Shown one piece after another: positions 3,139-60,878 of a stretch of 64,000 nt of DNA. Every line of letters begins with the position of its first letter. Within the stretch, counting starts at the first letter, position 1. Where the stretch lies: contig NC_090797.1 of the NCBI RefSeq assembly GCF_040054535.1, positions 11,727,501-11,791,500 of the forward strand, written 5' to 3'. Origin of the DNA: Antennarius striatus (taxonomy: Eukaryota > Chordata > Actinopteri > Lophiiformes > Antennariidae). The position numbers and the translations under genes were made by a program. The notes beneath the pieces were generated by a model that was not told where the DNA came from, searched no databases, and saw only the letters and a list, made by a program, of their open reading frames with translations.

Positions 3139-5689
3139 TTACACACACACAGAAAGGTAACAGCTCAGAGACAGCTTCAAATATCGAGGACATAGTTTTA
3201 TATTATTTTCAAATTGTGTTCAAGACCCAGATATGGTCACAATGTGAACACAATGTTCCTACTAATTTAAGAAAGTAGATGTTTTACTGACATATTTATA
3301 TTTTTGTAATACTGTACTGTCGCCTCTATGGGTCTGAGGTTATCAGGGATGTGTGGGTTTATTTACATGCAGAACAGGGAAGTCTGATGCAATCACTAGT
3401 GATCCGTCACGAGAACAGGCATCCTGAAGCCAGTCATGAACAGTGGTAGTCAGAGCTCTGCTCTGGTCAGGTGATGATACCTGGTTTAAACAGGCTCTAA
3501 GGAGCAACTAGTAACCACATGTTCTTACAACCAACCTCCTCTCCTCTCCTAACTTTTTTCTTTTTTCACATCCATCAGTTTAACCAATCAGAAAGCCTAC
3601 GAGGTACCACAATCAGATGTTATAAAGTATATGAAGATACACAACAGAACCAAAACCCAAAATGACTCACCGCATCTATAACTCCTGAGAGGATGAATGA
3701 TGACACTGTGTAAGTCACACACACACACACACACACACGCACGCACGCACACACACTTACAGAGAGAGAGAGAGAGAGAGAGGGAAATAGGGAAATGACT
3801 AGAGGAAAAAGCTTGTCCAGTTTGCCTTTCTAATCGTTTTCATATACGTACTGTATATATATACACACTGTATACACACACACACACACACACACAATAT
3901 ACGTATATATATAATTTCTTTTATTTATTTATTTATTTTAACCATTTGGCTCATTTACATAAGTATAAAACACAGTTTTGGAACTACAGAGCAGATGGCT
4001 TAAGTATTTCTGGAGTTTTATATCCCTTCAGTGCCCTACACAGACTTTTAATGACTCATTACATAAAGTGTAATGGTTTAATAACGCTGACTACTAAGAC
4101 CTGAACTATGGGACTATTCATTTTCTGTTCTCCATGACGCTACTGCAGAAAAATGAACCAATACACAACCCACTACCTTTACTTTATCATACATCCACAC
4201 AAAGGCACCAGCAGGTTGGATGAGACACACAAACAAACAAACAAAACACCGTAAAGCAGTCTGACGCCCATCTGGAGGGCGCTATGCAGTTAGCAGGTAA
4301 CAATCCAGCGAGTGTAAAACAATCTGCTCTCCACTCTCTGTGCTGATGAGCTGTTCACTGTAGACTTTAACTAACACCAGACGTTCTATAGTAATGGGCC
4401 TTTCTGTACATTTCCCCCTCTCAGCACTTTCCACTTCGGTATCTCTGAGTAATCTCTGATTGCAAATAGGACGGTAATGTATCGTGGAAAAAGAAGTTTA
4501 ATCCAATCTCTTTAATCCAACTATTGAACGTCTTGGAGTTGATTATGGCTTTTAAAGCTGTCAACAGCACTCGAGTGCTGTCTGGAAAGTTTTCCTCCAA
4601 GGCGAGAACACATTAAAAAGATGAAATTCCACTATTAAGCTTATGGTCTGTATAGAGATTGGTATGGTTAGCAATCGAGTATATATAAAAAACAAAACAA
4701 AAACACATCGGTTATGGAGGCCAGTCTCGGCGTCAGACTGTAAATTAGATGAGCTGAAGAATCAATAAAGCAAAACGTTACACGGCTGCTGTTCCTGCTC
4801 TACCTTCAGTGGGTCAAATGCACCGTACTGCTGTGTAATGTCTAATGAATGTGTTACATCCATAATGCTAAGACAATAGCACAGTGTGTTCGTTTAGTGC
4901 AACAACATGCATTCACTAAATTGTAAGTGGATTCAACAGAAACAAACCCAGGTATTAGCTGTTGATATAATGAAGGAGCCATGTAGTCTGGTGCACATAA
5001 GATTCATATAACAACTGTATTAAAATAATTTCCTATGTAATACTGTGTAGAAACAGAAAACAATATTTGACTTACGCCCACTTCTCCACAAACAAGTTTG
5101 TTTCAGTAGTTTAAGCATAATGAGGCAAATGATCCGTCTTTATCTTTACTTTATTTTGTATCCCGCTGATAAACCAACTGAACAAAGAGCCATCCCATCA
5201 CTCATCTGCTCTCATGGTGCCTACATGTGGTGTTGTAGTAAACAGGATAATTCAGCCACTAAACTGGTGTTTTCAATCCCAGTTAAGTGACTTTAGTATT
5301 CATGCTGCTGAGAATTAAGATAAGGAATTGTTTAGCGGTTTCAGGGAACGTACAAGTGCAGCAAAATGTCTGAAATAAATCAATTTTTTTTACGTGAAAC
5401 CGAGCAGGTAACATGTTTGAATGCTTTGAACATGAAAATACTGCACACTGTCTTTGAAGGATCCCTGTTTATACTTTACAACTCAAAAGTTAATATCAAA
5501 TTCACTGAATGCATACATAAAGGTTTATAATAACTCTAAATTTTATGCATCTGAGGATAGATTATATGATTTTAGATTCTGGTAAAATGCAGATGTTCAT
5601 GCATTTATATACATGCAAAATAATCGTGCAAGATAAAAAAAATTAAAAATACTGCCTCTATGAAAATGCAGATTTTCTTCCTGAATCAC
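1989..5689. other. Intergenic with simple repeats, no gene seen
   Basis: The stretch contains GT and CA microsatellites at about 2939-2960, 3080-3134, 3718-3760 and 3870-3896, and a short GA tract at 3762-3781. The remainder is AT-rich with stops in all frames. No exon of a known family was recognised. Confidence 0.6.
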
Positions 5690-6055
5690 CCTTATCTCTC
5701 CCGTATCATTCAGATTCTTCCTGATCCATCCTGATTAATCCTGATTCAACCTGATTCATTTCTTTTTCTAGATTCACCCTGATCCCTCCTGAATGATTCA
5801 GATTCACCCTGATCCACCCAAGTCATTCTGATTTATCCTGATTCACCTTCATTTATCCTGGTGTACCATGATTCGCCCTGAGTCACGCTGATTCACCTTG
5901 ACTCATCTTGATTAAACATGGCTCATCCTGTTCCACCTTGATTCCTCTTGATTCATCCTGATCAATCCTGTTCATTCTGATTCATCCTGATCAATCCTGT
6001 TCATTCTGATTCATCCTGATCAATCCTGTTCATTCTGATTCATCCTGAATCATGG
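5690..6055. repeat. Degenerate ~10-bp tandem repeat with 29-bp higher-order unit
   Basis: About 360 bases are built from variants of GATTCATCCT/GATTCACCCT. At the right end (about 5953-6050) three nearly identical 29-bp units appear, each made of three decamer-like pieces (GATTCATCCT, GATCAATCCT, GTTCATTCT). This looks like old decamer expansion followed by a recent local amplification. Confidence 0.85.
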
Positions 6056-9000
6056 TTTTAGACAAGGAGGAGAAAAATGGTTAAGAAGTTCAGTTGGTAT
6101 TGCTGTTTCCTCATCCAGGCTAGTTACTTCTCCAGAGCAGGTTGGTCACTACATCAGGTTGGTCGGTACGTCATTGATCATGAGGGCGATCTATTCACTG
6201 CCCCTCCTTGAACATGACCTTTAATGAAATCCTGTGTAATGCCCCGTTATGTTCTTGCTGTGTGTGAATGTTTGTGATCAAACAGAAACTCATTCATGGA
6301 GATTCAGATTTTACAATCAGCTCGAGTTTGAACTCCTGTAACAGTCACCTGGCTTTAGGGAGATCCATCCTGAGCCCCATCCTGACACACCACTTGGGGT
6401 CCCACTTCACACTTCAGAGGTGGGCATCGCCAACCCAAGCCCCACTTCTGGACACACCCTTTGTCTCTGTGCATTAGCATCGCATCATCAGTCAGCTGGC
6501 ATTGAGCTTAAAATTTAGACTGAAATAAAAGATATAAAAAGTAACCTCCATAACATCATCAGATATCTGGCCAAATGGCCGCAGGTCAAGTTGGGATTCA
6601 GTTCTATGGTCAAACAAGGATTTGGGACGGATGCCATCAATCTGGATTAAAAGCTCTCCAGAAGTCACTCAGAGGGTCTTGTGCCTGCTATCAGTTTCTG
6701 CATCTTGCTCCTGATCAAAGACAAACGGCGATGGTGAGGAATAAGTTGTCGGTCAACTTACATGCCAACATGGAGCAACAGAGGCCTCTTATGCTCGGAG
6801 AACAGCTGCTGACGGGGGGGGGGGGTTCAAACACGCCGAACGGCTGGAGGGAAGTCAACAACAAGAAAGGCTGTAAGTTTAGCACATCCTCCCTGATCTG
6901 CAGCGAACGCGAGCGAAGAGGACAGCGGTCTCCTGTCACGCCGAAGGGGCGGGGGCAAGGTCGGCGACGCTTTCCTGTCCGTTATGTACCTTATTGTTGT
7001 TGTTGCATATTTAAATTAAAGACGAAAGTAAGTAAGACTTTTTTTTATAAATTGTGACCTAGAACATTTTATAGCTTGCGTGATCATAAAGATTACCCAA
7101 AATGCCGTCCTCCTTTACACAAAACATTTTGGAGCCTTTAAGGGTTTTTGAGATCATCCCCAAAATATATAATTTATTCCATATAATTCATTTTCAGGTC
7201 TGCCATGAATAATAACACCCGAACTACAGGAAACATCATCACCACACCGGGTTGGATGGTGCATCATGGAAGATACAATATATTTTAGAGCCACACTCTC
7301 AACAAAACTTTCATCAGTGGAATATTACGTTTTCGCTCCTGTATGACTTATGGTGGCTCATTTCAAACTACATTTCATTTTGCTGACTGCATAAGTGTGA
7401 TGACGTGTTGCACTAAGTTTCAACACACCACCGTGGTGTAATGACAGCTCGTGGCGACGGTGGCAGCTGTTCGGTCTCGCTTGAATATTTCTCACCTGCG
7501 GTGTCAAGAACGGCATCATTTAACGCCATTTGCTTTTGCTCTAGTTTTGAGCATCTGCTAAATGAACTGTTGAGTGCACGTCCATTACAGATCCTGGTTG
7601 CTCCGCTTTGACTGTGTTTAAGTTTTTATAGAGCAGTATTCAAGGACTGCATCAGGAGGTGACGCTTTAGGAGTTCAGCTCCCGTCTCCTGACTGCAGCC
7701 CCACTCCCCCACCCCCTGGCACCAGTAAGGCCTCCGTGTGTCAGATAGCATGTCGTCATGCGCGACACGTTTAATTGAATTAGCTCAGCTATAGATGGGA
7801 GAGTAGACAGAGCCACAAATGCATTTGACATTACACTCTGGCAGTTTATCTGAGCGGCAACAACTGGCAGTGAAAGCCAATCCCCCCCACACACAGCTTC
7901 TACTTTTAGAGCAGGAAACAGGGGGGGGTGAAAGGTTCAGCGCCTGCAGAGCATGAAAAGGCTGAATGCCGGCAGACCAAGCAGCAAGTTACGCAGCTCA
8001 TTTAAATGACCCAGCTGGACCCCCAGAGCTTATATTCACCTGCTGCTGTGAAGAAGGACAAACGCCATGTGCCAGATGTTTTTTTAGTTTTAATGGAATG
8101 CATCCTTTTGAGTTATGAAAATAGATCTCACGCTGAAATAAGAAATCGGACAGCGGCTGCAAAGGGCACAGCTATAACTGTGTGCTAATGATCGCAACAG
8201 GAAGGCATGCATGTCTGAGGAGCGTCACACCGCTTGCATTTGATGAAGGGCAGAGCTATAACCCAGTGTGGGAAATGATGACAACACAGAGGCATGTGTC
8301 GGTTTGGGAGCTGATTTTTTTTTTCTGGCAAGAAAGGAAACACTTCCAGGAAACAGGAAGCAGCATGAATGAGAGTTGATCAAAAAACCGTTACTTGACA
8401 ACCAGACATCCCTCCATCGTAGAAAACAATCCTGAGAGAATTAACACAACATCCCGCTAAATGAAACCCACAGGGTGCAATTTGTGGGGAAAAAAACAAA
8501 TAAACATGAAAAAATAATCATGGAAAAATGAGAAATCAACAGGCAGAATTTTTTTTTTAGGTTAATGTTGAGCCCTATGAGCTGAAAATCTGAACAGTTG
8601 AACATCCATAATTAACACACATGAAACGTTTAATTTTCTGTGCCAGTCACAATGTGGAAGATGAAGATGATGAAGATGTCCTAATTAGACTTCAGGACCA
8701 CAGATAAGGGCCGATTACACCGACACGGTTTTTGTCATCTGATGAAAACACCAGAGGAGGAATGATACCCCCCAAATTCAAAGTTGGGGATTACATATAT
8801 GGAAGCAAACCTGTTACTGTGATATAAGCAATCAGATTGGTTATGGGAATAGTCAAAGACTGTTTTATCTTAATTTATGTTGGCAAGCTTGAATTTTCAA
8901 GTAGCAGCTCAAGATAAACCACAGAATGTCTGGTTTGGAAACCAGCAACAAATACTTTCAGCCATGAAGCAGATATTAGACCATTGCACCTGTCAAACTT

Positions 9001-10180
9001 AAATGTGTGTTGAGCAGTGCTTTAAAAACAACCAAATAACAACACAGTAATGTTTTACCTTCCATATCACGTGGTGGTTGATCTAATCCTCTGGTCAGGA
9101 GCTCCTGGACCTCATTCTGGCGCTCCAGTTTGACAACACGTCCAACTGATTTCCATCTTGTTTGCTGTCAACTCCAGTCGCTTTTGAAGTCCTCCAGTTG
9201 TCAGCCATGTGCACAATACATCATCAAAATATCACACCCCTGTGCTGACCTACCGCCTCACCAGCTGCCGGCTGAGATGGAGCAACAGTGTCGGTCATCA
9301 CGCCTTTGTAGCATTTACACAGAAAAGCGAGGCGCTAAAAACCCGTCCTGCTTTAAGCAAGCAGTTTAAAAAGAGGCTGATGGGAGCCAAGAAACAGAAC
9401 CACGAAGCTGAGCTCTATGCTGATGGAACACCCTTTCATCGGCCTGAAGAGTTTTAAGCTACATAACACCCCCTGGACCAGGAAAACACAAACATCATGA
9501 ATGTGTGGCATGAAAACACTAATAGGGTCCTTATTCTAGCCTTAGGGCACCGTAGAGATTAAGAACCCAGAGTGCTGCAGTTTGATGATGCCACGTGTGG
9601 CGAGTCAGCAGAAAGTCTGTTGTCATTTAGTTTCTTGTTTCTCATTGGTTATTGATTTAAAGTCCTGCTTGAACTTATTCTTCATCATCGCCCATAACGA
9701 TTTACTAGAAAAAGCAGTTCTGCTCTTCAAAATGATCAAAACATAAATTCTGTCTGTTGTGTGATACTTTATAAATCAAGCTTGTCTGCATCAGCACGGA
9801 AACTAACTGAGGGGAATGAGATTGTGCGATCTCACAAGCTTTTCTGTTTTTGGACTTTCGAACAAATAAAATGAGAGAAAATTATTGATATGTTCTGAGA
9901 AATCATGAAGATGTCCTGTGGATCATAAATAAATAGGTCATGCAGGTATCTCATCATATAACTGCAGTATATTCTGAACTGTAACAATGCACAAAGTGAA
10001 CTATGACATAATGATTCTTTGGTTCGGTTGACAAAAGACAATATTTTATCTAACCTACAGCAACCATCAAGATAATTATATGTCATCTTATTCCCAATGA
10101 AGTTGGTGTGTATTATTTAAGCAATGAACCCGTGAGCATTTCTGTTCACTTTGTTCACAACAACCACGCTGAACATCCAT
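6056..10180. other. Intergenic, no supported gene
   Basis: An open frame at 6575-7057 (160 aa, plus strand) contains a G13-like tract and a GC-rich part but no recognisable domain, and is not called. Two overlapping plus-strand frames near 9130-9460 were also unrecognised. About 7720-7880 is balanced in composition, with homeodomain-type AATTA cores, and could be a conserved noncoding element; this cannot be tested from one sequence. Confidence 0.5.
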
Positions 10181-46456: not shown

Positions 46457-47311
46457 TCATGTTAACTGTTTTTTCTGCCAGAATCTTGTTTTCTTTTTCT
46501 TTACCATCTTCTCATCCACTTCCTTTCTTTCCTTTGCATTTAAAGACTTGTCTGTCACCATACAATTCCCATCATTCTTTGCAAGTTTCTTTTTGAACTG
46601 GTCCAGCTGATCTTTGTCATTTGACTGGCAGATTTTTGCACTGTCACTATCACTTGTTTCCTCCTGAAAATTACTGATGGTCTTGGTGAATGTTTCAGAG
46701 AGAATACCAATCTCATTCTTCAACTCAAGAATATTGTTGTCCTTTTTGGTGACAGTGTGTTCCAATTGATTGACCTTGTCCTGCAGTGCGTTTATCTGGA
46801 CCTCATTCTTTTGAAGAGTTAAATGACAGTTGAAAGAATCCATCTCTTTTTGTTGGTTCCTGTGAATCACTTCCTGCAGTCTCTCTTTCAGTTCATCAAT
46901 TTCCTGTTGTTTCTGTTGCTGGATGTATGCAACTCTATTCATTTGGAATCGAAGATCTTCCCGGAGTGAGAGGATTTTTGCCTGTTGAGCTGAGATGGTG
47001 GCGTAGTCCTGTTTATATTGAGTTTGGAACTCTTGCTCCCTGAGAGTTAGAAGTCCTGTCACTCTTTCTAGTTCATATTTAAGTTTGTGTGTTTTCATAT
47101 TATGGTTCTTCCCAAAATGTTGTGGCATGTCCTTGCTAGTGCTTTGGTACTCCTCCAGCTGAACTGCATCTTGCTGTACAATTTGAATACATTTACCATC
47201 TTGATTGGCTTGATCTTGCCACTTCTCTCTTTCTCTCCTGTGGTTCTGATGTTTGCCATTCACAACAGACTGATGGATGGCTGAAAAATTTAGCTGAGGA
47301 AGATTACTCAT
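46457..47311 (-). CDS. Coiled-coil protein of unknown family, copy 1
   Basis: This is an intronless 284-aa frame. The N-terminus ([20 protein letters not shown]) is followed by a polar, Lys/Gln-rich segment, then a long coiled coil from about residue 74 to 210 with regular Leu/Ile spacing ([38 protein letters not shown]), and a basic tail. There is no signal peptide, transmembrane segment or catalytic motif. I do not recognise the family. A TATA box lies 42-49 bases upstream of the ATG. Its paralogue is at 49981-50886, same strand, in a tandem duplication. Against the paralogue, one base is missing near 46463, which shifts the frame and ends the protein early, removing a ~20-aa acidic tail. 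The constrained frame suggests a real gene; a retrogene origin is possible. Confidence 0.6.
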
Positions 47312-47352
47312 ACTGTATCACAAGAGACTATATGTGTGATGTGTTGGTTTTG

Positions 47353-49980: not shown

Positions 49981-50886
49981 TTACAAGTCTGAATTGTCTG
50001 TGTGACTATCCGTTTCTTTTATTTTCATCTCCTCTTCATCGGTAGTCAACGCTGACTGTTTTTTCTGCCAAAAGAATCTATTTTTCTGTACTGTCTTGTC
50101 CTCCAGTTCCATATTTTCCTTTGCATTAAAAGACTTGTCGGTTATTTTACTATTTCCATTATTCTTTGCAAGGTTTTCTTTTAACTTGTCCTGCTGATCT
50201 TTGCTATTTGTCTGGCAGAATTTTGCACTGTCAATGTCATATATTTTGTCCTGAAAACCTTTGATTGTTCCAGAGAGAATACCAATCTCATTCCTCAACT
50301 CAAGAATGTCATTGTTCTTTTTGATGACCTTGTTTTCCAAGTCATTGACCTTGTCCTGCAGTGCGTTTATCTGGACCTCATTCTTCTGAATTTTTAAATG
50401 AAAGTTGAAAGAATTTATCTCATTTTGCTGGTTTTTGTGAATTTCTTCCTGCAGTCTCTCTTTCAGTTCATCAATTTCCTGTTGTTTCTGTTGCTGGATG
50501 TATGCAAATCTATTCATTTGGAATTGAAGAGCTTCCCTAAGTGAGAATATCTCTGCCTCTTGAGCTGAGATGGTGGCGTAGTCCTGTTTATATTGAGTTT
50601 GGAACTCTTGCTCCCTGAGAGTTAGAAGTCCTGTCATTCTTTCCAGTTCATATTTAAGTTTGTGTGTTTTCATATAATAGTTCTTCCCAAATTGTCCTGG
50701 CATGTCCTTGCTAGAGCTTCGGCACTCTTCCAGCTGAAGTGCTTCTTGCTGTACATGTTTAATATATTTACCATCTTGATTAGCATGATCTTGCCACTTT
50801 TGTTTTCCTCCCCTGTGGTTCTGATGTTTGCCATTCACAACAGACTGATGGATGGCTGCAAAATTTGTCTGTGGAAGCGTGTTCAT
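49981..50886 (-). CDS. Coiled-coil protein of unknown family, copy 2
   Basis: This is an intronless 301-aa frame and the paralogue of copy 1. The start at 50886 (MNTLPQTNF) was chosen over an ATG 15 bases upstream because it aligns with the copy 1 start and because the TATA box at 50925-50932 would put transcription initiation near 50900. The domain plan is the same: polar N-terminus, coiled coil from about residue 74 to 210 ([28 protein letters not shown]), then a Lys/Asn-rich region. It keeps an acidic C-terminal tail ([20 protein letters not shown]) that copy 1 has lost. A block of 25 residues (from [11 protein letters not shown]) is identical in the two. Function is unknown; no catalytic motif is seen. 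Confidence 0.65.
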   Translation of the reverse strand: MNTLPQTNFAAIHQSVVNGKHQNHRGGKQKWQDHANQDGKYIKHVQQEALQLEECRSSSKDMPGQFGKNYYMKTHKLKYELERMTGLLTLREQEFQTQYKQDYATISAQEAEIFSLREALQFQMNRFAYIQQQKQQEIDELKERLQEEIHKNQQNEINSFNFHLKIQKNEVQINALQDKVNDLENKVIKKNNDILELRNEIGILSGTIKGFQDKIYDIDSAKFCQTNSKDQQDKLKENLAKNNGNSKITDKSFNAKENMELEDKTVQKNRFFWQKKQSALTTDEEEMKIKETDSHTDNSDL

Positions 50887-50924
50887 ATTTTTCCTGTACA
50901 CGGATTGTGTGAATATATGTGTTG

Positions 50925-50932
50925 CTTTTATA
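50925..50932 (-). promoter_or_regulatory. TATA box of coiled-coil gene copy 2
   Basis: TATAAAAG on the minus strand, followed by CAACACATATATTC, matches the corresponding promoter of copy 1. Confidence 0.6.
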
Positions 50933-51529
50933 GGATTTTATGGTTTTGATATCGAGGATTTAGTAACAAAGAGTCGTAGATCAAAGCGCAGGGAGAGTAA
51001 ACAAGGAAGAGTAAACTATATGACCAATGGTACAGTACAAACAATCAAATGAGAGTAGATCAAAGATCAGTTTGGCTTTGGTCTATCTGTGCAATTTACA
51101 CAACTCCCGCTAGTGATACAAGTAATAAACTATTTGTAGGAGCATCGGGGCTAATTCTCTGATGTATCTTTATTATCTTCTACTGTCAGACACGTACCAG
51201 TGTCAACAACAAACACACACAGGTCTTACTGGTTTTCACCACTAGATCTACAAATTATTACAAATAACTGGTCATGTTTTGGATAAAACGTCTGCTGGGA
51301 TGTTACAAGTGTGTTTCAGATCCAGTCACATGAAAATTAAAATCAGCGCAGTGTGAATTATTCATCAACTAGTAGAACTATCTAATTTTATGGTGAATGC
51401 AACACCTGAGCACCGGACACCCTCTTAATAAGTTGTTAATGAATCCTAATCAATAAAATGGAATCTTAGCTGCAAAACTGTCAAACTTCTATTTAATATA
51501 ATTACAACCCGACACGGTGGATGAAGCGG

Positions 51530-52612: not shown

Positions 52613-55600
52613 ATGGAGTCGAACGTGTTTACGGCCTTATCCAAAGGTTTGTTCACTTTGAGCAGAAAAATAATTAAATTTTAATCTTGTGTCACCTTTG
52701 AGTTAACAGAAATTAAGCTGACGCTAATTTTTATTGGAGTGTCAGTATGAAATCTAGCTTTGAAAGCTACGCTTATCGTTGTTCTGATATCACGCTTTAT
52801 AATCCTTTCCAAACAACTCTCCTAGCTTACTTCCACGTGGTTGCTTTGTGATCCGTTTAACTTTATATGGTAATACATTTTCGAAGGAAAGCAAACTTTG
52901 TCGGATGGATGTCGTTGTTGAACATGGGTTTCATGTTTTTGGCTGTAACAAGGCTGCATTCAAAAACACACCGCTGTTCTCATGCGTAATTAACAAGTGT
53001 TTGAGAAGATCCTCCTGCTGGACTAGAATTAGACGCGACCAGCAAAATGCTTAAAATTTATAATGACAATAACAGTTAAAATGTGTCATTTTACCGAAAG
53101 AATGTGTGGCTCACAACTGAGAATAAATATTGAGTAGATGTGATTTGATGCAGTACTAGTAAAGTCAGTAGTGCTAGTTGAATTCGTTTAATTCATCCTG
53201 GTAGTTTCCAGGTAATTTTGACTGATTCTCCTGGTGTGGTCAGAGTTCTCTCCTATTTTCCAGGTGACACCTTACCTCTGGCATCGTTACGGCTTCTGGT
53301 CCCACCTCTACAGCTTATGTCAGCGTCCATGTGGCAGGTTCTGAAGAAACAAGATATAATGAACTACTGGAGAGTAGCAGATTATATCTCTTTGGTGATG
53401 GACATGGTGCCAGAGCTGCTCATGTACAAGCACAGGACACAACTGAACCTGGGATTAAGAGCTAGGGTGGGAACCAATTGTTGTCAAAGATTGAGACAGT
53501 GATAGATTCCTAATGATAAGCCATGTTTTTGTGGTAATCTGTTTTTTAATTCTCTTTTTCAGTATATTCTTGAATTGTGCCGTAGTGAAAACCTAATCCA
53601 ACCTGACTTCATCGTGTCTCACCTGGAGAAGATTAAACCACCATGTCCGACCCCAATCGAGGTAAGTGACATAAGTCTGGATGGTCTGTATTCATTTCAT
53701 AAATATTTTTTGGTTAGTATGCGTTTATGGCCATATTATTGACATTTTATTTTTAGCTCATCCACACATTTGTTAAAACCACGTAGGTGCTGTGAATTTA
53801 TAACATAAATGCCATTTTATTTCCACACTGCAGATGAAAGAGTCAGTGGAAGAAGTAGTCTTCAACTTTCTTGAACTAATCCAGACTTTGCTCAAAGATC
53901 CTGAAGAGAGACGAGACTTTTTTATGGTGAGGCGTCATCCCTTGCTGTTAAAGTAGTGCCATTGCAGATTTATTTGTAAAGAGCTTGATTCTGTCTTTTG
54001 TACACTGTCAGTTGCATATCAAATTTGGCAGTAGTACAAAGTGACTATCTGGTCTATCTGCCACTTTATCTCTCTTTCCCTATCTGCATTTTTTCTCCAC
54101 TCAACCGGTCAAAGCAGATGACTGCCCTCTAGAGTCCGGGTCCTGCCCGGAGTTTCTTCCTCAATAAGGGAGTTTTTCCCCGTTGCTGTTCAAAAGATTT
54201 CATGCCAGCTTTATGCATAGAATATTATTACAGCAGAGATGGCTCGTTTAAATTTTTTGTCCTGTAACTTAATTGTTAATATAATGCTTTTGTTTTTCAA
54301 AGGATGTCTTCCCAGCTGAGTATGGACCTCAGTATGACAGTGACTTGCAGATTCTTTTTTCTGAGTTCCTCTGTCGGCTGGATCAGCTGTTGCCCGTTCC
54401 TGAACTCGAGCAGGTTAGACTTTTCTTTTTTTAAGGTATTAGTTTTTCACATTTTAAAAATACTTTACATATTCTATCTACATTGCTGAGGAGATGCTGC
54501 TGAATTCCAATTGCAGAATAACAAAATGACTTTGCATGACTTTTCTGCAGAAGCGCCATTGTGCTCCACGTTCCTGGCAATAATTGGAGATCTGTTGTTA
54601 TGATTCAAAGCAAATAAGTCATTAAGTAGTTGGATCATCTGCTAGAATGAATCTAATTATCAAAAATCTTGTTTTTGAAGTTAAAATCTTAGTTATAAAG
54701 GATTAGTTGTGAAGGATTTAGCATGATGTGTGATTTCATACATTCCCACCAGACTATTTCCTGGCTTGGAGCTGAATGTGCTGTGTTGGATGACTGTGTG
54801 CATTCAGTCTCTGAGCCAACAGACCTGATAAATTTGCTCCAACACCACAAACAACTTGGGCATTTGGAGCAGCATGGTAAGTCTTATCTCACAAACACAT
54901 CTAGTGTGTTTGACTTTCATTGTGAAAGTGATGTTCTTTTTCTTTGTACAGTTCCACCATCCATTATGGGTGAGAGGATCCTCTCATCCCTTTCTGCAGT
55001 TTGTCCCAGCAAAGCGTCAAACACCACAGAACTCATTCACTCAGATCCTCTGCAAGGCGTCAGTGATGACACACATACTGTGTCATTTGTGGATGATGTA
55101 GCCATTGAAATAATCACGGTGACAGATTATGCAGAGGTTGAATTAGACACGAGCACTGACATTGAGGTGGTAGGAGAGAACTGCTGTGAAGTAACAGACA
55201 CTGGCATAGCTATGGAAGAATCACTGGTAGTCCTTCCTGGTGAGGACAAAGTTGTTGCAAGGACAGAAGAAACACAAAAACCCACAAGTGGTTTGACAAA
55301 CACTATACCTCAAGAAGCAAACGAAAATTGGGACTCCACCCAACACAAAATTTCTGTGGGACCTCATGACTGCCCAGATTGCAAGAAGAAATTTAAGTTT
55401 GCCTCTTCGCTAATCGCCCACAAGGTCATCCACACCGGTGAACGCCCCCACCGCTGCAACGATTGCGGTCGCTGCTTCTCCTTCCGGCAGTCCCTTGACA
55501 GGCACCGACATACACACAAAACCAGACGCAAGTACACCTGCGTTGTCTGCAATGAGACGTTCCACTCCTTATCAGCACGCACGGAGCATAAACAGACACA

Positions 55601-58025
55601 CATGGAAGACGGTACTTACACGTGTCATTGGTGCCAAAAGAAATTTAACTGGGAGCTGGCACTAGCAAGGCACCTGAAAAGTCATTCTGACGATCACGAG
55701 GCAAACGAGCATACTGAGCCTCATAAACAAGGGCAGCAAGTTGTTGTGGGTAATGAACGTTTCAGCGAGGCTCCAGCAGCACCTCCTGACCCTAACCACT
55801 GGCTGCGGGTTGAGAATAAAGGTGAGCTGGATAATGAGAGTGGCGAGCCTCCCAAAGTGGTTTCTGTGGTGAAAGTTCGCACAAGTGGGCGAAAACCCAA
55901 ACCCACCATGAAGATCCAGGTGATTAATTTACAGAAGAACATGGCAGTAAAAAGAAAGAAAGAACACGGCAAGAGGAGAACTCCAGAGATTAAGCCTCTG
56001 CCTTTCACCAGGTAAAACCATCTTCCGTTATTAACCTTATCTGGAATTTATCAGAGCTTTAGTTCAAACTTAATGTATATACATTCTGTTGTTTATTTTG
56101 AATATATGGTGGCTGAGGTGGAACATTGTGCCTTACGTTTGCTATGTCTCTAACAGTACAGAGCACTCGTACGGTTCGTCTATGGGCTCAACTCAGCACA
56201 GTGACAAAAGTGAGTTCATATTCACAAATTTGTTTTTTCCTATCCCTCCAACACAATTACATGGTTAGCGAGAGCTCAGACAGACACCATGAAGCACTTT
56301 AAAACACTTTTTTTTTTAAGGAAAGTTGGATAAAAAATTAAGTAAAATAAAGGCCTTGATATAGACGGCAGTGGGTGCCGATGGAGGATGGAGGCCTTTG
56401 TCAGTGAATTATGAGCAGCTTTCAATGCATGCATACATCTGAATGGCCATTTCACACTGGATAGTGTCAAACCAGGTCATTTTGCATGTAAATTTAAAGC
56501 TTTCTTACACACAAATAATTTTCTTACATAGAATTGATATGTTGTGGTCGTGTTAAACCAGGTCGGCAGACGCAGGTCCCATCATTCATACCAAAGTTCT
56601 AACTTATTTTTAGGGTTAGTTATGGACAGATTACAGGGTAAGTGTTCTTTTACAAGCGATTGTTTTTAAGTAACTTCTTTAATGACATCGCGTTATCCTG
56701 TCTTAACATAATGAACATTTTTTTCTCCAGACTGTAACCATTTTATTTTCCCTTGAGGTTCTGGAGGGGAGGACACATCAGCTGCTTTCTCCTGCCTTCA
56801 GTGCTCCTTCAGCCACTCAGAGGAAGAACAGGTCCGGCAGCACGTGGAAACTGTCCACTCTGTGGAGGTTCAGGAAGAGAGGCTGTCCTTTCAGCCCCTC
56901 GCTGATGATGAAGGACGTTTTAGCTGCTCAGACTGTGAGAAGAGTTTCAAATTTCAGTCTTTACTGAAAGCACACCAGCGCATCCACACAGGAGAGCAGC
57001 CCTTCCTGTGTTCTCAGTGTGGACGGAGGTTCTCCTTCAAACAGTCACTGGAGAGACACAAGCAGACACACAAGTCTGGGCGCAAGTATGAGTGCCTGAT
57101 CTGTGGAGAGTTCTTCAAGTCCCTGGTGGCTCAGAGGCAGCACAAGAGCACCCACATGGAGAACGACGATTACTTATGTTCTGACTGTGGTCGGGCGTTT
57201 GCCTGGAAATCTGCACTGGTGAGACACCTGAAGACACACTGCAAGTATGAAGACAACGTGGAGCGATCTTTCAAGTGTCCTCGCTGTGACCTGGGCTTCA
57301 GCTGTGTCAGTTACCTCAACAAGCACCTCAAGACGCACAGAGAAGAGAGAGTTCACACCTGCAACTGTGGAAAGAGCTTTGCTTACCGGGCAGCTCTAAC
57401 CGCGCACCAGCGCATCCATCAGAAGGAGAGGCCGCACACGTGCACACAGTGTGGGAAAGGATTCCTCTACAAGGGGGGCTTGCTGAGCCACATGAAAATC
57501 CACTCGGAGGACATGCCCTTCATGTGTTCCTTTTGCGGGAAGAGTTTCAAGAGAGAGCGCAGCATGAAGAAGCATGAACGCTACCACACCAGGGAAAACA
57601 TTTTTAGTTGCTCACAATGCGACAAGAGCTTCGTCTACAAGGCGACTCTGATCAGACACGAGTTGACTCATTCAGGCGAGAGACCATACCTGTGCTCAGA
57701 CTGCGGGAAGGGCTTCTTTTCTCATGCGGAACTTCTGAAGCACGAGCGGTTCCACACTGGTCACAAGCCTTTCCAGTGTCCCCACTGTGACAAAAAATTC
57801 ACCCAGTCTTGCTACCTGACCATCCACCTGCGCTACCACACCGGTGTCCGGCCGTACGCCTGCACAGAGTGTGACAAGAGTTTCCTCAGCGCCAACCGCC
57901 TTAAAAGGCACCAGAGGACACATTCAGGAGAGAAACCTTATTTGTGTGGAGACTGTGGGAAGGGATTCAGGCAATCGTATAACCTGAAGATGCATCAACG
58001 AACACACACCATGAAGTTAACATAG
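52613..58025 (+). CDS. TIN2-like N-terminal domain fused to C2H2 zinc fingers
   Basis: Ten coding exons: 52613-52646, 53264-53466, 53563-53661, 53834-53926, 54303-54413, 54753-54876, 54952-56011, 56157-56209, 56614-56637, 56758-58025. All junctions are GT-AG and phases are consistent (3069 nt, 1022 aa). The ATG has A at -3 and G at +4. Residues ~20-200 resemble the human TIN2 (TINF2) N-terminal domain: MWQVLKKQDIMNYWRVADYI, MYKHRTQLNLGLRAR (human RYRHHERLCMGLKAK), and EYGPQYDSDLQILFSEFLCR with LLPVPELEQ (human EYG...LFEYLCQLEKALPTP). Fingers 1-4 are at ~362-466 and 14 more at ~613-1017; the first of those is atypical and one has CNC spacing. No FxLxP TRF1-binding motif was seen. It is probably nuclear; telomeric or other DNA binding is inference. 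It could be the fish tinf2 orthologue or a lineage-specific fusion. Confidence 0.85.
54110..54260 (+). mobile_element. LINE 3'-region fragment (family A) in an intron
   Basis: TCCGGGTCCTGCCCGGAGTT TCTTCCTCAATAAGGGAG is the reverse complement of the sequence at 1-40 and 63540-63580. It lies in the intron between exons 4 and 5 of the TIN2-like gene. Confidence 0.65.
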
Positions 58026-59074: not shown

Positions 59075-60878
59075 CTAGACAGCTATGTGTAGAGTAATGG
59101 GGCAGTGGTCGCTACCCATTGCCTTGTTACGGATTTTGCTGTCGCACAGGCCTGGCAAAAGGCTGCTGGACAGCACGAAGTAATCCAGCCTCCAGCCCAC
59201 GTTCTTACTACGGGAGTTCATCATGTAGGTCCAGAAGGAGTAGGCGTTGGCCTGTTCGGGGTACAGCTCGCGGAAGCTGTCGACAAAACCGGCCTCCAGC
59301 AGCTGGTCGAAGCCTTCGCGCTCCTCTGGGGTGAAGCCTGCGTTTTTCTTGTTCCCCTTGGGATTCTTCAAGTCGATCTCCTTGTGAGCGACATTTAGGT
59401 CGCCACACAGCACCAAGGGCTTTTGCATGTCCAGCTCGCTCAGGTACGCCCGGAAGTCTTCGTCCCAGGTTTTGCGGTAATCAAGGCGCACGAGGCCTTT
59501 ACCAGCATTTGGCACATAGCTGGTCACCAGGTAGAAGCTGGGGAACTCTGCAGTGATGGTACGGCCCTCTTTGTCATGCTCTTCTTTGCCTGGCATTCAA
59601 TAAATAATAGTTAACAAGTGAATGCAGCTACCCCAACAGGATTCAGTGTGCTATGATGGAAGTGTCATACAAGAAGAAACACCAATTTAGATTAACTTGT
59701 TTACGGTGTAAAATATGGGCAACAAGTTCTCTTTCAAGCAATTAACTGGAGTTCTGTACAGTAAATAACGCTACAAACTGTACTTGTCTGAGAATTAAGA
59801 CTGGAAAAACTAACATGACCGTCCAAAGTTAAGGACGTCTGCTGGACAGCCTTTGAATGTGCTGTGTCTGTACAACAATCAAAAAGGAGATTTGGAATAT
59901 TTTAGGATTATTTGTTACATTCCAATTGTGGAAGCAATTAAACAGCCACTAATAAAGGTACTGCACATAACCTAATTTAATTCCACAAAATACACTGGAA
60001 TAAAATGTTTATTTCTGTAATCATACCAAGCCTCTGTATTCTCTTAATATTTTAACCTTTGTCTTATTTGTGCAATTCCCAAAGGTCAATTCACCCAACA
60101 CTGTTGAAGCTCTAATTGGCAAAAATGTCTTCATAAACTTGCACCTAAGACTTGTGGGAACTGAACTTTTTTTGTCCTATCGAAAGTCACCAGTACTGGT
60201 TCAAAAACTTTTAAGACTGATAAAAACAAGGCCAGTGTTCAAGACAACTCACCAATGCCATAGGTGACTTTCAGTGGTTCAGTTTTGCAGAGCATGGCCA
60301 CACCACTGTAACCCTCCTTTTCATCAGACGCAGCCCAGTACTTGTAAGGGTACTCGGGCATGGAAGTGATGTCAGCAGGCAGTGATTTCTCAGAGCACTT
60401 TGTCTCTTGCAGGCACAAAACATCTGGATCCTCCTCACGGACCCACTGAAGGTTCAGACAGGAAATGTTAAAACCAATGCGAAACTTCATTTATCGTTGC
60501 TTTCATTTCTCAGGGTCACTGCATACTCACATCCAGACCCTTCTTTTTAACCCAGGCCCTAAGCCCATCCACATTCCATGAGGTAATCTTCATGTTGGCA
60601 TTGCGTCCATCTTTGCTGGTCATTTTGTCAGGAGGATCCTCGTACAGAATCGGAGCTTCAGGTTCCTTTGCCTTCTTTCCTTTCTTTGCAGAAGCTGTGA
60701 GGTTAAAAAAAACATTTAGTCATGACAGCGACAGGCCACGTGCAGTTTGGAACCACATCAGATTGTTTAATATTCATATAATAGTACGTATTTAAGATTT
60801 TATGTGTAATGTGTTACCAGATCCTGCATCGTTTTCCTCGTCTGCAGCGGCCTCCTCCGTTTTCTTGCCTCTCTTCAT
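59075..60878 (-). CDS. apex1: DNA-(apurinic/apyrimidinic site) endonuclease 1, four coding exons
   Basis: This enzyme cuts DNA 5' of abasic sites in base-excision repair in the nucleus. Coding exons (minus): 60818-60878, 60531-60694, 60253-60445, 59075-59589; 933 nt, 310 aa (human 318). A short Lys/Glu-rich N-terminus carries a KKGKKAKE stretch suited to nuclear import. The exonuclease III-type catalytic fold follows: [10 protein letters not shown] (Asn61, Asp63), CLQETKCSE (metal-binding Glu), [31 protein letters not shown] (catalytic Asp and Asn), [19 protein letters not shown] and the terminal [13 protein letters not shown] with the catalytic Asp-His. All key catalytic residues are present. 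The position of human redox Cys65 is Thr58 (KITSWNV). A possible 5'UTR acceptor lies at 60949 (TTTTCCAG, then CGGCG), so an upstream noncoding exon is likely. osgep is divergent. Confidence 0.97.

Follow-up and report, generated by a model that had tools for sequence, protein, structure and literature searches.

A zinc-finger gene that begins with a TIN2-type domain

TIN2 (TINF2) is commonly regarded as belonging to shelterin alone, and the locus described here raises the question of what a TIN2-type domain is doing in front of an array of C2H2 zinc fingers. The gene lies on the forward strand at positions 52613 to 58025 of the window, by which we mean the whole 64,000-nucleotide stretch of Antennarius striatus DNA that was analysed (G000:C22:11727501-11791500; the genome totals 548 Mb and is assembled into 42 contigs). 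The preliminary description of this gene offered two readings, in which shelterin is either assembled differently or has given rise, through TIN2, to a transcription factor, and the rest of the genome favours the second, with a family of 12 related loci, 10 of them with fingers, and a separate TIN2-like gene on contig C4. We estimate at roughly 0.68 the probability of the reading that we prefer. By this reading the window gene belongs to a family that combines an N-terminal interaction domain of TIN2-type, TRFH-like character with a DNA-binding array; it would not be the core shelterin TIN2, and its protein, laid out like those of KRAB, SCAN or FiNZ zinc-finger genes, would be a DNA-binding regulator of chromatin or transcription.

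The in-frame joining of a TINF2_N domain to zinc fingers in this gene is firm. The model has ten exons with GT..AG at every intron, as first proposed, and gives a product of 1022 amino acids. Pfam TINF2_N (PF14973) matches residues 35-180 over positions 1-149 of the 149 in the profile, with 158.2 bits and E=2.4e-46, where the curated cut-off is 29.4 bits and a human TIN2 fragment scores 191 bits; the run used a model of 1021 amino acids that differs from the 1022-residue product only at the exon 7/8 joint. When the N-terminal 221 residues were compared with the PDB by phmmer, human TIN2 (5xyf_A, E=1.2e-12) was the sole match at E<=1, and a profile built from 11 of the 12 family members, omitting L019, found the same entry at E=3.3e-22 with the next match at E=1. 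The earlier assignment of exons 1-6 to a TIN2-type domain is borne out by these matches, which exclude the case of an N-terminal part without any TINF2_N profile match. In the 1021-residue model Pfam also reports C2H2 families, and no KRAB or SCAN match was found at E<=0.001.

Exon 1 (52613..52646) provides the ATG and the first GT donor of the model, and its translation starts MESNVFTALSK. The first third of the domain (LPLASLRLLVPP...LGLRAR) is encoded by exon 2 (53264..53466), which lies in the Pfam stretch and could be aligned in all 12 family members. The domain continues through exon 3 (53563..53661), with a counterpart at 10 of the 11 other family loci and none found in L019, through exon 4 (53834..53926), placed by exon modelling, and into exon 5 (54303..54413), where DVFPAEYGPQYD...LLPVPELEQ, again in the Pfam stretch, aligns with LEQEYGEPF...LPTPQ of human TIN2. 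Exon 6 (54753..54876) adds about 40 residues that lie beyond the Pfam boundary and are conserved in the 12-locus alignment, and it ends in a phase 1 donor. Exon 7 (54952..56011) holds a RILSSLS motif, an acidic linker and four C2H2 fingers.

A challenge to this model is that two genes, a TINF2_N gene and an unrelated finger gene behind it, have been wrongly joined. Exon 10 by itself is a long open frame, as such a second gene would be, but past exon 6 the open frame of exon 7 includes the motif typical of the family as well as fingers, and at nine other loci fingers come after the domain in the same order on the same strand. A wrong joint is thus most improbable and was rejected, and the proposed fusion is retained over a pair of separate genes.

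The TINF2_N family in this genome

When the complete genome was searched with PF14973, there were 36 matched stretches at E<=1, falling at at least 13 loci, of which seven are on C22 (3.7 to 11.8 Mb), two on C21 and one each on C23, C18, C24 and C4; of 14 control genomes one gave a match, below the cut-off. A second query, the domain of locus L010 taken as protein, gave 32 stretches at E<=0.1, which returned the 12 family loci again without the C4 locus and added nothing new. Both genome searches score best candidates only, and for this reason 13 loci is a lower bound. Domain identity is 34-55% among the 12 family loci and 21-28% to human TIN2. Exons 2-6 of the domain were modelled automatically at 10 of the 12 and at L011 after the limits had been narrowed, while L019 is without a recognisable exon 3. 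The models include some weak or GC donors, and their exon phases were imposed and are therefore not independent evidence.

In all 66 pairs of family loci, agreement is higher at the first and second codon positions than at the third, as expected of protein-coding sequence under constraint. This pattern bears on the suggestion that the window gene is a decaying copy or an assembly artefact, for which one could cite its exon 10 acceptor (GAG, not YAG) and the split finger frames of two relatives. In these relatives, L018 (G000:C21:71000-80900) and L019 (G000:C24:6795400-6805300), the fingers are spread over two or three open frames, and the loci may be decaying or may have further exons. In the window gene, however, all exons are open, and the signature of constraint is found in all the locus pairs as well as in a duplicated finger block considered below, which makes decay or artefact very unlikely.

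Counting the window gene, 10 of the 12 family loci have finger arrays downstream of the domain. Finger frames lie on the same strand within 10 kb at 9 of the 11 other loci, and Pfam C2H2 matches were obtained at all nine. At L010 (G000:C22:3883500-3893400; 4636-9539, + strand), at least seven Myb/SANT-like domains lie downstream on the same strand, in seven open frames that were picked by eye and match PF13837 above the cut-off; no finger array was found in about 26 kb downstream, where the few relaxed-pattern matches are single and chance-like. At L015 (G000:C23:1861900-1871800), about 28 kb downstream contained neither fingers nor a Myb/SANT-like signature, the latter sought with one pattern and Pfam being run on one linker frame only. 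A motif like GDCILSSLSLPP follows the domain at 8 of the 12 family loci by a loose pattern, L010 and L015 included, and its counterpart in the window is GERILSSLSAVCP, early in exon 7. This motif, of the form GDxILSSLSLPP, is a possible docking peptide.

The finger contact residues vary widely among family members. A fixed N-terminal domain with changing fingers is also the layout of the KRAB and FiNZ genes, and the family might, like these, repress retroelements, which would be a special case of the regulator reading that we prefer. This role is suggested by the layout together with the divergent contact residues, and by the cyprinid FiNZ genes, which are reported to repress long terminal repeat (LTR) elements (PMC10547256). 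The family has only about ten finger-bearing copies, diverged and distributed over several contigs, against hundreds of FiNZ copies, and we regard retroelement repression as a tentative proposal that is less likely to be right than wrong.

One protein or two last exons

The preliminary description placed 18 fingers in one predicted protein. The count stands, as the window product has 17 C2H2 fingers of ordinary spacing and one C-x-C finger, with exon 7 in frame; the uncertain part is the joint of exons 7, 8, 9 and 10 into a single protein. Exon 10 (56758..58025) has a phase 1 acceptor and encodes 13 fingers of ordinary spacing and the C-x-C finger before the stop. Between exons 7 and 10 the model places two possible mini-exons, exon 8 of 53 nucleotides (56157..56209; GT..AG, open frame) and exon 9 of 24 nucleotides (56614..56637), without which the frame also holds. 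When the intron was Markov-shuffled 500 times, a mini-exon equal to exon 8 in quality turned up in 14% of the shuffles if the donor rule was strict and in 60% if it was relaxed. If exon 7 is left unspliced, translation runs to a TAA at 56013-56015 and gives a product of 575 amino acids, and an AATAAA at 56346..56351 might, as a pattern only, provide the poly(A) signal if the transcript stops with exon 7. A direct splice from exon 6 to exon 10 is also in frame and gives a product of 643 amino acids.

Exons 7 and 10 are thus entered from exon 6 in the same phase and could therefore be alternative last exons, the first with 4 fingers and the second with 13-14. That all 18 fingers stand within a single protein of 1022 amino acids is only possible, because exon 6 joins exon 10 in frame, exon 7 can stop at its TAA and a mini-exon such as exon 8 arises by chance.

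A block of four fingers is common to exons 7 and 10, with 60 of its 108 residues identical. The exon 7 fingers are 56% identical to those of exon 10 and at most about 37% identical to those of any other locus. Within the duplicated block, codon agreement is 67% at position 1, 71% at position 2 and 41% at position 3, a pattern that marks the block as an old duplication within the window gene, both copies of which have been retained as protein. Two separate finger frames were seen in the window gene alone among the loci, if the split frames of L018 and L019 are set aside. The finger exons of L009, L012 and L013 open with a short F-x-C-x2-C-x-F unit, like exon 10 of the window. When the loci with exon-10-like finger exons were grouped as a clade in the tree, the P value of the approximately unbiased test (p-AU) was 0.156 with L012 and 0.163 without it, support that is too weak to decide. 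As a separate observation, the shared block means that exons 7 and 10, if each can be the last, may recognise similar DNA targets.

Which gene is the shelterin TIN2

A gene on contig C4 (C4:7027493-7030210, L020) has a spliced frame that matches TINF2_N with 53.9 bits and E=3.2e-14 and human TIN2 with E=1.2e-10, and no finger array was found in 28 kb around it. Its last exon, in matching phase, contains FTLSP, an FxLxP motif of the TRF1-docking type. The same exon holds PTFMLP, which we take to resemble the human TIN2 stretch 283-287. An HP1-gamma-binding motif is located at residues 283-287 of human TIN2 (PMC5974431). On sequence grounds, the C4 gene is the best candidate for the shelterin tinf2 of this fish.

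FxLxP is absent from the 1022-residue window product, in agreement with the preliminary description, and from the modelled part of each of the 12 family members; HxLxP strings occur in two of them, within the domain in L012 and within a finger in L019. Telomere-binding zinc-finger proteins share an RxxHxxR signature in the finger helix (PMC11846949). This signature is found in 0 of 128 family finger matches, a count that covers the main frames of 10 loci (for L018 and L019 likewise the main frames only). A search of the genome for the TRF family (PF08558) gave no match, and its control also matched nowhere, so that this search is uninformative.

Alternatively, the window protein might function within shelterin itself and reach telomeres by its own fingers and not through TRF1, a possibility that has to be weighed against these results. 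In its favour are a full-length TINF2_N domain and human TIN2 as the sole PDB match at E<=1; against it, the window gene is one of 12 loci that resemble each other and whose fingers differ strongly in their contact residues. The window gene scores above the C4 gene on the Pfam profile and keeps the counterpart of human TIN2 E153, yet it is without FxLxP, RxxHxxR is missing from all 128 finger matches, and a TIN2-like gene exists at C4. We consider this explanation improbable. The reading of the window protein as core shelterin TIN2 was rejected as the main one on account of the 12-locus family and the separate C4 gene.

The residues through which TIN2 binds its partners were compared as well. 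The TIN2 domain (residues 2-202) is described as binding motifs of TPP1 and TRF2 (PMC7072152, PMC8262337, PMC5974431), and the human substitutions A15R, F152A and E153A are reported to abolish binding to TPP1 and TRF2 (PMC8262337). At the positions of A15, F152 and E153 the window gene has M, S and E, and the C4 gene has A, L and H. All 12 family members carry L, M, V or T at the A15 position, where the C4 gene retains A.

Several results weigh against placing the window gene outside shelterin and the C4 gene within it. Neither F152 nor E153 is present in the C4 gene, but E153 is kept by the window gene, and two family members have F152 or a W together with E153; with residues distributed in this way, these positions draw no clean line between shelterin TIN2 and the family. 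The FTLSP motif of the C4 gene has a shuffle probability of 0.067. In the tree, human TIN2 and the C4 gene are joined at 71/89 only and by two long branches, and neither a clade of TIN2 with the window gene (p-AU 0.285) nor one of TIN2 with L015 (p-AU 0.225) is rejected. By TINF2_N score the window gene is nearer to human TIN2 than the C4 gene is, with 191 bits for the human fragment, 158 for the window gene and 54 for the C4 gene. Close to L015 there are a frame that is DHRS4-like by its best PDB match and an SH3 frame of the CAS family, surroundings like those of human TINF2, and this fingerless locus could be the positional orthologue of the human gene. Finally, the regulator function proposed for the window protein is inferred from gene layout.

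A proposed role and its relation to known systems

If the window gene is a family member of this kind, the TIN2-type, TRFH-like domain would serve across the 12 loci as the N-terminal protein-interaction part and would hold a partner through a short peptide, in the way that TIN2 holds TPP1 and TRF2. The downstream DNA-binding array, usually of C2H2 fingers, would pick the target, and the targets would differ from member to member. The window protein would accordingly act as a sequence-specific regulator of chromatin or transcription, probably a repressive one, and its locus would yield either two forms, one ending with exon 7 and the other with exon 10, or one long form of 1022 amino acids. 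A wider and rather doubtful version of this proposal is that this fish uses the TIN2-type TRFH domain as an adaptor for general purposes, combined with fingers at ten loci and with Myb/SANT-like frames at one, which might carry the shelterin docking surface, or a rewired version of it, to many DNA sites; shelterin TIN2 would then be just the fingerless branch within a larger family of adaptors targeted to DNA.

In KRAB and SCAN zinc-finger proteins the finger array stands behind an interaction domain at the N terminus. The window gene is alike in layout, but its N-terminal domain is TINF2_N, encoded over five exons. With TIN2 itself (PDB 5xyf) it shares the same domain family over the full length, and it differs in its zinc fingers, its 12-locus family, the larger residue at the A15 position and the lack of FxLxP. 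The cyprinid FiNZ genes likewise form a family in fish whose fingers diverge and whose N-terminal domain is its own. The FiNZ domain is described as 28 amino acids that are encoded by a single exon and resemble no known domain; it occurs in about 700 zebrafish genes (684 after reannotation; PMC10547256). By that description FiNZ is set apart from the present family, whose domain has about 205 amino acids in five exons and occurs at 12 loci. ZBTB48/TZAP, ZBTB10 and ZNF524 are similar in having C2H2 arrays linked with telomere biology, but the RxxHxxR signature is theirs and not that of the family, and ZBTB48 has a BTB domain instead.

Among the open-access matches listed, there was no paper on a TINF2_N zinc-finger family, and the architecture may already be present in automatic domain databases. 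Private N-terminal domains are already known from other zinc-finger genes; TINF2_N in that place, and the Myb/SANT-like case, look new.

Neighbouring genes

Downstream of the window gene and tail to tail with it lies APEX1 (59075..60719, - strand), the upstream exons of which were read by eye; its frame at 59078-59596 has APEX nuclease 1 (2o3c_A, E=4.3e-102) as best PDB match. In human, APEX1 is on the same chromosome arm as TINF2. Upstream of the window gene, two long open frames on the - strand (46460-47317 and 49984-50937) are by eye alike and coiled-coil-like and are apparently duplicates.

Implications

Zebrafish tinf2 mutants seem unaffected, according to PMC11846949, which cites Ma et al. 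2022. The family described here may bear on this observation, though compensation, and the presence of the family in zebrafish, are beyond the present results. If our reading is true, a domain that is the hub of the telomere complex doubles as a zinc-finger-associated domain, and the family raises the question of which partners the TIN2-type domain binds away from telomeres.

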